From positions 310,001-374,000 of the forward strand of contig SVOB01000002.1 of assembly GCA_015066565.1 (NCBI GenBank): DNA of 64,000 bases. Direction: 5' to 3'. Each line of letters begins with the position of its first letter. The stretch's first letter is position 1. Positions 37,486 through 42,263 of this stretch are shown in pieces. Position numbers and translations under genes: made by a program. Below the pieces are notes generated by a model. That model saw only the letters and a program-made list of their open reading frames with translations, was not told the DNA's origin and made no database searches. Source of the stretch: Oscillospiraceae bacterium (GTDB lineage: Bacteria; Bacillota; Clostridia; Oscillospirales; Acutalibacteraceae).

Positions 37486-37526
37486 AAAACCCCTCATTTA
37501 AAAATCAATCGGATATTATAATAACA

Positions 37527-37558
37527 AAAAACAGTTGCATTTAGCAACTGTTTTTTAA
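37527..37558 (-). terminator. Terminator of cohesin gene/operon
   Basis: CAGTTGC-TAAAT-GCAACTGTTTTTT on minus strand. Confidence 0.85.
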
Positions 37559-37570
37559 TTATATTTGATT

Positions 37571-38839
37571 TTATTCTGTGTAATTATCGTCGTCAACGGT
37601 GTATGTTCCCTCTTCGGCGACTGCCTTTTCTCTCTTTCTGAGCTTTACGGCGAGGGTTACAACGGCAATTATTGAAGCTAAAAGAACAACCGCAAGAGCG
37701 CAGATTGCTTTAATCATTGTCGTCTTTTTCATTCCGATATTGTTATCGGGGTCAGCCTGAGTTGTAGGCTCGGTTGTCGTTTCGGGCTCGGACTCCTTAA
37801 CGCTCAGACCGTAATACTTCTGAATCGACCCGTCGTTTTCGTCATAGACGTAAAGCGAGGAATTACCGTCCTTAAGGCTGAGCGCATAGAGAAGATAAAG
37901 CCCCTTCGCCTTGAATTCGTCGTTCTGGTAAGCGGCGATTTCCTTGTCGTTAATCTTAATATTAACGGGCTTGTAGCTTTCGGGAATTGAATTCTTTTTC
38001 GCCGCAAGAAGAACAAGCGGAAGAGATTCCGACTTGATTCTAATGTACTCGCTGAATGAATCGCTTTCGTCGTCAAACAGCGCAAAGCTCTTCTTTCCGT
38101 CCTCGTCCTCAATGCAGACTATCTGCTGAGTTTTATCCTTCGAGGTGTAGGTGAGAATTCTGTTGCCCTTGTAGTCCGAATAGGTTTCGTCAAAGCCGTC
38201 GGGAGCGTCAACAAAAGCCGAATCGTCAACGAGAGTATAGGTTTTGCCGTTAAGAACTACCTTGTCATCCTTAGGCTTGGTAGTGGTTTCGGTTGTGTTT
38301 TCGGTTGTGGAAGCTGTTGTAGTTGTCGAATCCCTGCGGGTAGTGGTTTCGGGCGCTCGCGTTGTGGTTGCGGGAGCCTTTGTAGTAGTTTCGGGCGCTT
38401 TTGTAGTCGTTTCCTCGGGAACAACCTTAAGAGTAGCCGCCGCGCCGGAAAAGCCGTTTATTTTGTCGCCTGCGTTATCGCTGACGAGAACGCTGCTTAC
38501 CTGAATTGTTGTAGAGCCGACCTTATTCGCCTTGAATACAAAGCTTACGCTGTGGCTTGAAGCAGAGGAGTTATCGTCATACCAGACGGCTGTTCCTCCG
38601 TTAAAGCTCGCTCCGCTGCAGCTTTTGTATGTGAGAATACTTGAGTCGTAGCTGATGGAGAACTGAACGCCGGCTATGTTACTGCCTGAAAAACGGACTG
38701 TAACCGTAACTGAGTCGCCTAACTCAACGTTATTCTGTGAAAAAGCGATTGTTGTGCTTGCGGCAAACGCCACCAGCGAAACGTTTAAGCATATTATAAA
38801 TGCAACAAGTACGGAAATTATTAACCTTGCCTTTTTCAT
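37571..38839 (-). CDS. Membrane-anchored cohesin-domain protein with Thr-rich linker
   Basis: Signal peptide; VELGDSVTVTVRFSGSNIAGVQFSISYDSSILTYKSC cohesin-like; (TTTKAPE)n linker; C-terminal TM AICALAVVLLASIIAVVTLAVKLRKRE. Confidence 0.8.
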   Translation of the reverse strand: MKKARLIISVLVAFIICLNVSLVAFAASTTIAFSQNNVELGDSVTVTVRFSGSNIAGVQFSISYDSSILTYKSCSGASFNGGTAVWYDDNSSASSHSVSFVFKANKVGSTTIQVSSVLVSDNAGDKINGFSGAAATLKVVPEETTTKAPETTTKAPATTTRAPETTTRRDSTTTTASTTENTTETTTKPKDDKVVLNGKTYTLVDDSAFVDAPDGFDETYSDYKGNRILTYTSKDKTQQIVCIEDEDGKKSFALFDDESDSFSEYIRIKSESLPLVLLAAKKNSIPESYKPVNIKINDKEIAAYQNDEFKAKGLYLLYALSLKDGNSSLYVYDENDGSIQKYYGLSVKESEPETTTEPTTQADPDNNIGMKKTTMIKAICALAVVLLASIIAVVTLAVKLRKREKAVAEEGTYTVDDDNYTE

Positions 38840-38853
38840 ATTTTTTCCTCCTG

Positions 38854-40962
38854 TTATGCGAGAATAATATTTCGTATTTTAACTATGTCACGTATGTCGA
38901 GCGCCGCGTCGCCGTTTATGTCGGCGGCGTTGAAATTGACGCCGCTAATCTTTTTGGTGTTGAGAATGTGGTTTCGCACCTTGACTATATCGAGAATATT
39001 AGTCTCGCCGTCGCCGTTTACGTCGCCGATAACGCCGATTTTATAAACATAGTCAATTCCCGCCTTGGTTACCGTGAGGGTCATTCCCGTTGAGATATTT
39101 CCCTTTGTAACTGCGTCCTTGCCGTCCTTAACCGTCGCCGAAGCGCCCTCGGTAAGTCCGAGCGCCTTTATAAATGAACTGTAAGACGTTTTATCAGAAA
39201 CCGATAAAATATACTTGTTCTTTTCGTCAACCTTGTATTTCGTGCTGAAAAGGTCGGTGTTTGTTGTCGGCTCTGACGGGGGAGTAGTGTCCTCAGCCTC
39301 CTGACGGGTTATAGTAAGAACATAGGTTCTTGAAGAACCGCTTGGCGAAGTAACCTTTATGTTGTATGTGTTCTTGCCTTCCTTCAGGCTTACCTTGCTG
39401 TAGCTCGAGGTAGTAACGGTATCCATTTCGATATAATTACTGCTGACCCAGCCCTTAAGGGTAGTGCCGCTGTATGAAAAGCTAATCTGATACCATACCG
39501 TTTTATTGACCGTCTGTTCGCCCAGCTTCTTTATGGCGGTGCCGTTCTTTATTCCGACGTATTCGCCTTTATATTTCAGTCTGTTTTCATTTTCGTCGGG
39601 AGATGAAACGCCTGCGCTTGTACGAACTCTTAGGTTTGAATTTACGTTTACAACCTTACCCGTATCGGCGACAGAGGTTGTTGTCGTGACGGGAATACCC
39701 GAAACGGTAGCCTTTGAATAATAAGGCTCAGCCGAAATTGTAACCTTTTTAACCGAATTGGGAACAGTTACCGTGTAATTATTCGTAGTTACCTGAAGAG
39801 TGCTTGACGGGCTTAGGGTGTAGGTATCAACCTTTAAGGATTTAAGCCAGCTCCACGGGCTGTCAGCCGTAATCGGAAGCGGACTGATTTTTGAGGGCAT
39901 ACTGTTATAAACGGGAATAACGAAGGTGAATGCGTTATCGAGCGCGCCCAGGTCCTTATATGTTGAATAAACCGACCTACCCTCAGTATAAGCGGCTGTT
40001 ATATTTCCCATATACTGATGGGTGTAAAGCGAGGTGTCGTTGTATTCGCCTACAACGTCAAACTTTTCAAGATAAAGGGTGTTTTGTTTATTGTTGATGT
40101 ATCCCTCGCCGATGTACGTAGCACCGCCGACAATGGACTTATACTGTGAGGTCCAAGGTCTTCCGTAGCTCTTGGATGGATCCGAAACCTTTTGCGAGGC
40201 CCATTTAAGACCGTTTGCTATCGGGTTTGAGCCCGAATAAGCGCCGATGTTATAGAAATTATAAATTCCCTTGTACGTTTCGGAGTATGTGCCGCTTGTC
40301 GAGCCGCTTCCGCTTTTGCCGACCTCCTGAATTGTTCTTGCGGCAAGGTGATAGGGGCTTACGTTTGAGTGCTTTGCGGCGTCAATATACGCCTGAGCGT
40401 AGAGAATACTCTTGTTACTCGTGTTTGTTATTTTTTTGCCGTCCATAAAAGAGCCTTTAAGAATAGCCTTAACGCCGTCGATGGTATGTATATCTTCGTC
40501 GTAGGAAAGTTTTTCAAACTGGAAAATATCAACGTCCGTGAAAAAGTTTCTCGGGTCCATATAATATGAAACCGTTTCAGCCGCCGCCATATACCAGCCG
40601 CCTGCGTCGTAAGAGGTATAGGTGTCGGTCGAGCCGTTATAGGATTTTGAAACTATAGAACGGTATGACTTCGGAAAAACATATGAGATAAGGCTTCTGT
40701 CGGGGACTGACGGGTCGGTTTCCTTTGCTATTACGTCCGACCACTTAAGACCCGTATAGAAAAACTCGAACTTCCAGTTCGGATGAGCCTTTTTAAGCGC
40801 GTTGATATAGGTTTTATAGACTGACGGAACGGTGGAAGAAACGTATTGGCTCGCCGCCGCTTCGGTATTAATCGGTTCAATAAAAGATACCAGTGAAAAA
40901 ACCATTAGGAACGCTAAAACAAGGCTGAACGTCCGTTTCAAGAAAACTCTCATATTTTTCAC
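38854..40962 (-). CDS. Secreted glucosaminidase-like cell-wall hydrolase with SH3-like, cadherin-like and C-terminal type I dockerin
   Basis: VSPYHLAARTIQEVGKSGSGSTSGTYSETYKGIYNFYNIGAY; SH3-like VNVNSNLRVRTSAGVS; dockerin DVNGDGETNILDIVKVRNHIL...DINGDAALDIRDIVKIRNIIL. Confidence 0.88.
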   Translation of the reverse strand: MKNMRVFLKRTFSLVLAFLMVFSLVSFIEPINTEAAASQYVSSTVPSVYKTYINALKKAHPNWKFEFFYTGLKWSDVIAKETDPSVPDRSLISYVFPKSYRSIVSKSYNGSTDTYTSYDAGGWYMAAAETVSYYMDPRNFFTDVDIFQFEKLSYDEDIHTIDGVKAILKGSFMDGKKITNTSNKSILYAQAYIDAAKHSNVSPYHLAARTIQEVGKSGSGSTSGTYSETYKGIYNFYNIGAYSGSNPIANGLKWASQKVSDPSKSYGRPWTSQYKSIVGGATYIGEGYINNKQNTLYLEKFDVVGEYNDTSLYTHQYMGNITAAYTEGRSVYSTYKDLGALDNAFTFVIPVYNSMPSKISPLPITADSPWSWLKSLKVDTYTLSPSSTLQVTTNNYTVTVPNSVKKVTISAEPYYSKATVSGIPVTTTTSVADTGKVVNVNSNLRVRTSAGVSSPDENENRLKYKGEYVGIKNGTAIKKLGEQTVNKTVWYQISFSYSGTTLKGWVSSNYIEMDTVTTSSYSKVSLKEGKNTYNIKVTSPSGSSRTYVLTITRQEAEDTTPPSEPTTNTDLFSTKYKVDEKNKYILSVSDKTSYSSFIKALGLTEGASATVKDGKDAVTKGNISTGMTLTVTKAGIDYVYKIGVIGDVNGDGETNILDIVKVRNHILNTKKISGVNFNAADINGDAALDIRDIVKIRNIILA

Positions 40963-41072: not shown

Positions 41073-42263
41073 TTATAACATACTTTTTATGTTTTGTAAC
41101 TCTTTTTTTGCAACTTTTTCGATATTTTTGCCGAAAATATGGGAATAAGAGAAAAAAGCGACGCCACATATTGTGTTTTTCTGTAAAATCAGCCTGATTT
41201 GTCTTGAAATTATATCGTCGTTGTCAAGCCATTCGTTTTTCCCGCTTCCTGCGTTCGGGTCGGCTTTTCCGCATTTGTAAAACGCCAGCCCGATAACGAG
41301 CTTAACATCTTTGTTTTCGGTAAGTGAAACCCATTCGTCAACCGTCTTTTCAAAGGGCGCATTTTCGTTTTCAAAGCCGAAATACACCTGTGGAATAACC
41401 GTATTAACCCATCCGTTTTCAAGCCACAGCGGTATGTCGGCGAATTTTAATGAATAGTTTTTTTCCGTGTTCGCCATAGGGCTTATGACGAGCGAAACGT
41501 TATTCTGAGAAGTGAGGGTATGAAGAGAAGAAATAAGGGAGCTGACGTTTTCTCTTCTCCAGTTTTCAACCGAAAGAGAGCCGCCGTCTTTTTTATAATT
41601 TTCATAGCTTTTCCTATCCGCAAAGGAGGTCATATCGGGATAAAAATAATCGTCAAGGTGAATAGCGCCGACGGGGTATTTTTCAATAATCTCCCTTGCC
41701 TCGTCAAGTATAAGCCGTTGAACAGATTTGCCCGCAGGGTTGAGATATATTTCATTTTCGGTGATAATAAGATTGTTACTGTCGTCGGAATAAAGCTTCC
41801 TGACCGTAGGATTATTCTTTAAAACCGACAAATCCTTTGCAGACGAAATTCTGTACGGATTAATCCACGCCTGAATTTCAATTCCTGCCGAAACGCAGGC
41901 GTCGCAAATAACGTCGAAAACGTCAAAATCGGTTTTACTTTTTATATATTTGCTTTTCATCAGCAGGTCGCTTTCATAGAACGAATCGCAAAAAGCCACG
42001 GCGTGAACTATAAGGGTGTCAGAGCGGATTGAAAGAAGATTGGCGCAAAGATTAATAATTTCTTCCCTGAATTCTTCCTCGGTTTTACCCTTAACTAATT
42101 CGGATATTTCAAAAAAACTCAGCCATACGGCGTTCGTGAAACCGCTTTGATAACTGATTTTTCCTTTATAATCCGAGGTTTGATTTTCGTTTTTTGCAGA
42201 GTTCCCCGCACATGAACAAAGCAAAAGGGAGATGATAAGTAACAGTGATACAATTCTTTTCAT
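41073..42263 (-). CDS. GH10-like (GHL10/YngK-type) lipoprotein
   Basis: Lipobox LLLCSCAG; AVWLSFFEISEL, IEIQAWINPYRIS, GAIHLDDYFYPD. Confidence 0.85.
   Translation of the reverse strand: MKRIVSLLLIISLLLCSCAGNSAKNENQTSDYKGKISYQSGFTNAVWLSFFEISELVKGKTEEEFREEIINLCANLLSIRSDTLIVHAVAFCDSFYESDLLMKSKYIKSKTDFDVFDVICDACVSAGIEIQAWINPYRISSAKDLSVLKNNPTVRKLYSDDSNNLIITENEIYLNPAGKSVQRLILDEAREIIEKYPVGAIHLDDYFYPDMTSFADRKSYENYKKDGGSLSVENWRRENVSSLISSLHTLTSQNNVSLVISPMANTEKNYSLKFADIPLWLENGWVNTVIPQVYFGFENENAPFEKTVDEWVSLTENKDVKLVIGLAFYKCGKADPNAGSGKNEWLDNDDIISRQIRLILQKNTICGVAFFSYSHIFGKNIEKVAKKELQNIKSML

Follow-up and report, generated by a model that had tools for sequence, protein, structure and literature searches.

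A cohesin-bearing membrane protein as the probable socket for a dockerin-bearing GH73 glucosaminidase in an Oscillospiraceae bacterium

Cohesin-dockerin pairs are known mainly from cellulosomes and a few glycan-degrading complexes, and the non-cellulosomal ones are mostly without known function. Two adjoining genes in a 64,000-nucleotide stretch of an Oscillospiraceae genome (contig SVOB01000002.1; the whole stretch is referred to here as the window) raise the question of what a dockerin does on a putative cell wall hydrolase, and whether the protein encoded next to it is the one that this dockerin binds. The genes lie on the minus strand, as do all the features given below, and are separated by 14 nt: H (38854..40962) encodes a secreted GH73/SagB-type glucosaminidase with a dockerin (702 amino acids from a GTG at 40962, with an alternative ATG start at 40953), and C (37571..38839), which is downstream, encodes a membrane-anchored cohesin protein of 422 amino acids. 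An earlier, sequence-only reading had given the coordinates and spacing of the two genes correctly, and proposed that their products tether a peptidoglycan hydrolase at the membrane, in a non-cellulosomal use of the cohesin-dockerin interaction. Our analysis favors this proposal: H and C quite probably form a two-part wall-remodelling device, with C as the membrane socket dedicated to a wall hydrolase.

H starts with a signal peptide, followed by a GH73/SagB-type glucosaminidase and a cadherin-like domain that an SH3-like insert interrupts, and it ends in a type I dockerin. The dockerin (aa 646-700, 38863..39027) scores 36.5 bits with PF00404 (cut-off 22.9) and consists of two F-hand Ca2+ loops, DVNGDGETNILDIVKVRNHIL and DINGDAALDIRDIVKIRNIIL, with D/N at positions 1, 3, 5, 9 and 12. 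Both are intact and, as had been noticed before, symmetric, with 13 of 21 positions identical (0.62). The top dockerins in the PDB are 6kg9, 6kge and 5nrm, among which the C. acetobutylicum CaDoc0917 chains rank first. The catalytic region (aa ~37-360, 39883..40854), placed by the SagB model, PDB matches and alignment A2, resembles GH73 structures (5wqw, E 4.4e-7; 6fxo; 4pi7), and the Glu of its LAARTIQEVG motif (E210) is invariant among 12 homologues (alignment A2). The NCBIfam SagB model also matches H (E 4.9e-13, 48.9 bits), far under its curated cut-off of 425, and by that rule H is not SagB. The cadherin-like β-sandwich reaches 26.8 bits with PF12733 (cut-off 24.2) in the better of two stretches (aa 491-554, 39301..39492). 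Of the initial description of H as a glucosaminidase/SH3-like protein, the glucosaminidase is supported by the SagB model and the GH73 structures, and the SH3_3-like domain (aa 471-512, 39427..39552) is found only below threshold (PF08239, 21.1 bits, cut-off 27).

The identity of C depends on its N-terminal domain. The sequence-only reading had recognized a signal peptide and a cohesin-like domain, then a Thr-rich linker and a transmembrane (TM) helix, all of which are present, but overlooked a domain of ~155 amino acids that precedes the TM helix, which is followed by a short tail. The signal peptide (aa 1-26, 38762..38839) is predicted from a hydrophobic N-terminus ending in SLVAFAA. For the cohesin (aa 28-141, 38417..38758), the suggested check against Pfam profiles gave a divided answer, whereas the H dockerin is clearly over its cut-off: PF00963 scores 28.8 bits in a six-frame search of the whole genome, which is over the cut-off, and 18.3 bits by hmmscan, which is under the cut-off of 24.1 and speaks against our interpretation, and a BatD model competes for the same domain at 17.4 bits (hmmscan). 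The lack of a cohesin fold had been named as grounds for abandoning the proposal, and it is the fold that decides where the Pfam score is doubtful. In an AlphaFold2 model of aa 25-350, made from a six-sequence alignment and with a pLDDT of ~80-92 across the cohesin part, residues 25-141 form about ten strands arranged in the β-sandwich/jelly-roll fold of cohesins. The first 33 PDB matches found by Foldseek are all cohesin entries (2jh2, 2vo8, 5n5p, 6kgc and others). The C. perfringens GH84C cohesin (2w1n, 2jh2), CaCohA2 and 2vo8 rank at the top, and single-cohesin chains reach TM-scores by target of ~0.6-0.72 at an rmsd of 3-4. Similarly, a profile of 23 family cohesins (A6) retrieves scaffoldin cohesins from the PDB (best E 4.3e-9). 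By its fold, the N-terminal domain is a cohesin, and the BatD assignment was rejected on the same fold matches. CaCohA2 is the partner of CaDoc0917 in the entries mentioned above, a likeness that is consistent with H-C pairing and is no test of it. In the family cohesins (A6), the YDxSxLxYxS strand is followed by a common loop rich in Ser and Gly (S-G-x-G ... GGGG).

The remainder of C is what defines its family. The Thr-rich linker (aa 142-187, 38279..38416) takes a position that is occupied in most relatives by a cadherin-like domain (PF12733 in 8/10 family members). The membrane-proximal domain (aa 190-346, 37802..38272; alignments A1 and A3) is kept throughout the family and is its defining module; in the window protein it matches no Pfam model, and the PDB gave no significant match. 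A TM helix follows (aa ~375-398, 37646..37717), placed by hydropathy in relatives and by the window sequence, and then the short cytosolic tail.

If C is the socket for H, the two genes would be expected to stay together in other genomes, and the sequence-only reading had likewise made co-occurrence in relatives a point on which it could fail. The membrane-proximal domain (A3) provides a probe that is independent of dockerins, and it was found in 7 of 399 genomes sampled over the phylum and in 19 of 297 sampled over the order. Taken together with relatives found earlier, and leaving the window out of the count, there are 24 further loci in which a C gene lies directly downstream of a dockerin-GH73 gene on the same strand, with gaps of −17 to 34 nt (L054 and L175 have a GH73 gene that is split into two frames ahead of the dockerin). 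These loci span seven families of the class (f1, f10, f14, f16, f17, f21 and f28) and metagenome-assembled genomes (MAGs) labelled Bacilli, Tenericutes and Erysipelotrichaceae. H-C adjacency is therefore retained in distant relatives, and the chance adjacency of two common domains was rejected on the strength of these 24 loci. The H of the closest named relative is 74% identical to that of the window. On a tree of the GH73 enzymes, in which L054 was scored as solo owing to its broken frame, the paired state requires at least four changes on well-supported branches, indicating repeated gain or loss of the pair.

The association of C with a dockerin goes beyond GH73. With the contig-end loci L164, L166, L174 and L184 left out of the judgement, every C gene with an intact upstream neighbor except the one in L051 is preceded by a dockerin gene, including those where GH73 has been replaced (L178 and L185). 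In L185 (G352), the dockerin partner of C consists of SpoIID, SH3_3 and a dockerin. SpoIID is itself a peptidoglycan-lytic family, and the socket thus stays while the wall enzyme changes. At this locus (L185:3107-6871), two cohesin-TM genes lie in tandem after the SpoIID-SH3-dockerin gene, and the second of them apparently continues across the contig start (L184). At the L178 locus (L178:1900-5590, G087:C40) lies a dockerin/C-type pair that its genome has in addition to the GH73 pair; the dockerin protein of this second pair contains an fn3-like domain and no recognized enzyme. In L143, a dockerin fragment at the contig end lies upstream of two tandem C genes.

Not all of the family conforms, and several findings weigh against docking as the basis of the pair. 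In a Lachnospiraceae MAG (L051:4966-8671, genome G756), a GH73 gene without a dockerin is followed after 52 nt by a cohesin-like C homologue, and a search of the genome gave no PF00404 match, which means that C can persist without a cohesin-dockerin interaction. In Bacilli-type C proteins, the N-terminal domain is shorter and is missed by the cohesin HMM, and a whole-chain model yields only generic Ig-like PDB matches, in a Foldseek result that is dominated by multi-Ig chains and is little informative. H and C might thus cooperate without any docking, if the cohesin-like domain had wall glycans or some other protein as its ligand and the membrane-proximal domain, conserved family-wide and without a known relative, contacted the GH73 enzyme directly as in SpdC-SagB. 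We regard this as unlikely, since all the other C genes with an intact upstream neighbor have a dockerin gene there, L178 and L185 included, and since the dockerin class and the cohesin type change together within the genus.

This joint change comes from a comparison of dockerin classes. An HMM of the paired class was built with the window and its nearest relative left out. It gives 76.4 bits for the H dockerin versus 20-40 bits for the 16 other dockerins of the same genome, and 24-51 bits for dockerins of same-genus GH73 proteins that lack an adjoining C gene; the dockerin of L120, a contig-edge case from another genus, scores 61 bits. Paired dockerins have near-identical repeats (median identity 0.67) and a K.RNH.L-like second helix, whereas the other dockerins of the genome are mostly asymmetric (median repeat identity 0.34). 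Within the genus, one lineage of GH73 enzymes bears differing dockerin classes. One of these, the FK.K.GE class, co-occurs with a different cohesin-TM protein of ~260 amino acids in 12 of 13 genomes, versus 0 of 13 for the other classes (same genus; Fisher p = 2.7e-6, a value that ignores shared ancestry). In three of these genomes, from sister species, the gene for this protein (L128:3104-3895, L130:1622-2434 and L132:4799-5695) is found two genes upstream of the GH73-dockerin gene, with one gene of ~400 amino acids between them, in the position of the GHL10 gene described below. Dockerin class and cohesin type thus switch jointly in the genus, which is the behavior expected of interacting partners, and the tethering of H by C is a well-supported inference.

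A socket that is dedicated to H would have to be distinguished from one that serves every dockerin in the cell. A profile search of the genome (1.96 Mb on 3 contigs) yielded 17 dockerins and 2 cohesins, each cohesin being single on its protein. This imbalance, and the fact that single-cohesin TM anchors are termed "nonSLH-anchoring" scaffoldins (PMC11557425), would suit a C to which all 17 dockerin proteins attach, as to a general anchor or scaffold at the surface, in a minimal cellulosome- or adhesin-display system, with its place beside H being incidental. We consider this very unlikely: the other 16 dockerins belong to other classes (20-40 versus 76 bits), are mostly asymmetric and in many cases have AFD/GFD second repeats, and C adjoins a wall-lytic dockerin gene across families. 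The shared AFD/GFD second repeat further indicates that a second, larger dockerin network exists in the genome. The second cohesin (G000:C2:672548-672961; L018, L201:4183-7980) is on a GLUG/MBG protein of 1266 amino acids, which has an N-terminal dockerin and a tail (PKTGN-TM-KRK) resembling a sortase signal. The 16 other dockerin proteins (L193-L204) are mostly surface proteins of the BspA-type LRR, FIVAR and InlB-repeat kinds, with one that is transglutaminase-like, and none has a plant-polysaccharide hydrolase domain by Pfam. Membership in a cellulosome was rejected on these grounds, only two single cohesins and no such glycoside hydrolase domains, and the non-cellulosomal use claimed by the sequence-only reading agrees with the module count.

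The 14-nt gap between H and C contains an AGGAGG ribosome-binding site (38847..38852) and no terminator-like site. C is followed by a likely intrinsic terminator, a 14-pair stem-loop with a T-rich tail (37525..37557). The two genes probably constitute one co-transcribed operon. Upstream of H is a gene for a GHL10 lipoprotein (41073..42263; PF02638, E 2.1e-34). A GHL10 gene adjoins the GH73-dockerin gene in L118 as well (PF02638, E 4.1e-35), and by position and size, such a neighbor is also present in L049 and most same-genus genomes. E. coli DigH belongs to the GHL10 family. The substrates of DigH are denuded septal glycans (PMC12288456). In a Bacilli-type MAG (L053), LCP and Glycos_transf_4 genes are beside the pair.

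These neighbors bear on what H cleaves. The family of H suggests that it acts on peptidoglycan, and specifically on the cell's own wall; the GH73/SagB assignment, SpoIID as an alternative partner, the GHL10 neighbor and the LCP and Glycos_transf_4 genes in L053 all argue for a role in the wall. The gut setting, and the breakdown of extracellular polymers that is the main use of cohesin-dockerin complexes elsewhere, would instead suit a feeding enzyme, anchored at the cell surface, with foreign peptidoglycan or other polymers of GlcNAc as its substrates. This is quite unlikely in our view, as the same family, partner and neighbors speak against it, and as the enzyme is expected to sit at the membrane, with the cell's own wall outside it.

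In the arrangement that we propose, with C as the dedicated socket, C would sit in the cytoplasmic membrane with its cohesin outside, spaced off by the linker and the conserved membrane-proximal domain. Secreted H would fold its dockerin with Ca2+ and plug into this cohesin. Given the symmetry of its F-hands, H would most likely be able to dock either way round. A SagB/LytG-type endo-glucosaminidase would thus be kept at the membrane-wall interface, where it may trim glycan strands of the cell itself, nascent or septal. A bolder version, possible but one that we lean against as a whole, is that C is a widespread Firmicutes socket family forming a Ca2+-dependent plug-and-socket with GH73 or SpoIID enzymes, in which the membrane-proximal domain orients or gates the enzyme in an SpdC-like manner, and in which dockerin and cohesin types are exchanged jointly, insulating the wall pair from other dockerins. 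The recurrence of the pair across many gut Firmicutes suggests that the cohesin-dockerin fastener also holds cell wall enzymes at the membrane. If this is true, a conserved one-to-one wall-hydrolase pair would assign a job to many non-cellulosomal cohesin-dockerin modules, represent a new bacterial way of keeping dangerous autolysins in place, and provide a source of cohesin-dockerin pairs with natural orthogonality. Surveys relying on Pfam cut-offs can overlook such cohesins.

The literature searched, on dockerins with peptidoglycan hydrolases, autolysins, GH73 or SpoIID, does not describe the pair, although a key older review of non-cellulosomal modules was outside this search, so that a prior mention is possible. 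The membrane-proximal domain and its possible gating of the enzyme may be the most novel part. The nearest cohesin folds to C are those of C. perfringens glycoside hydrolase modules (2jh2, 2ozn, 2w1n and 2vo8), which likewise form a non-cellulosomal link. These C. perfringens cohesins are carried by secreted glycosidases that have host glycans as substrates, whereas C is non-catalytic, membrane-anchored and paired with a wall hydrolase. As a functional analogue, SagB-SpdC would be the nearest: S. aureus SpdC scaffolds SagB for glycan trimming (PMC10581084), and in both cases, a GH73 glucosaminidase would be held by a dedicated membrane partner, H matching the SagB model. SpdC, however, is a polytopic CAAX-protease homologue and SagB itself is membrane-associated, whereas C is a single-pass cohesin protein with no CAAX-protease-like domain, and H bears a dockerin. 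Anchoring scaffoldins with a single cohesin and a C-terminal TM helix, like C, occur in Herbinix luporum, C. cibarium and Lachnoclostridium sp. MSJ-17, with partners reported as unclear (PMC11557425). Going by what is described there, C would differ from them in its dedicated adjoining wall hydrolase and its membrane-proximal domain. Other gut Clostridia have cohesin-dockerin systems as well, such as the Limousia mucinolysome and the Ruminococcus amylosome and cellulosome, in a literature that calls R. albus cohesin-deficient (PMC12997984, PMC5814915, PMC4081043), and the tabulated Ruminococcus dockerin proteins include GH73 (Tables 2 and 3, PMC4081043). In those systems, scaffoldins are used for mucin, starch or fiber, whereas H and C would be a one-to-one pair for wall hydrolysis.

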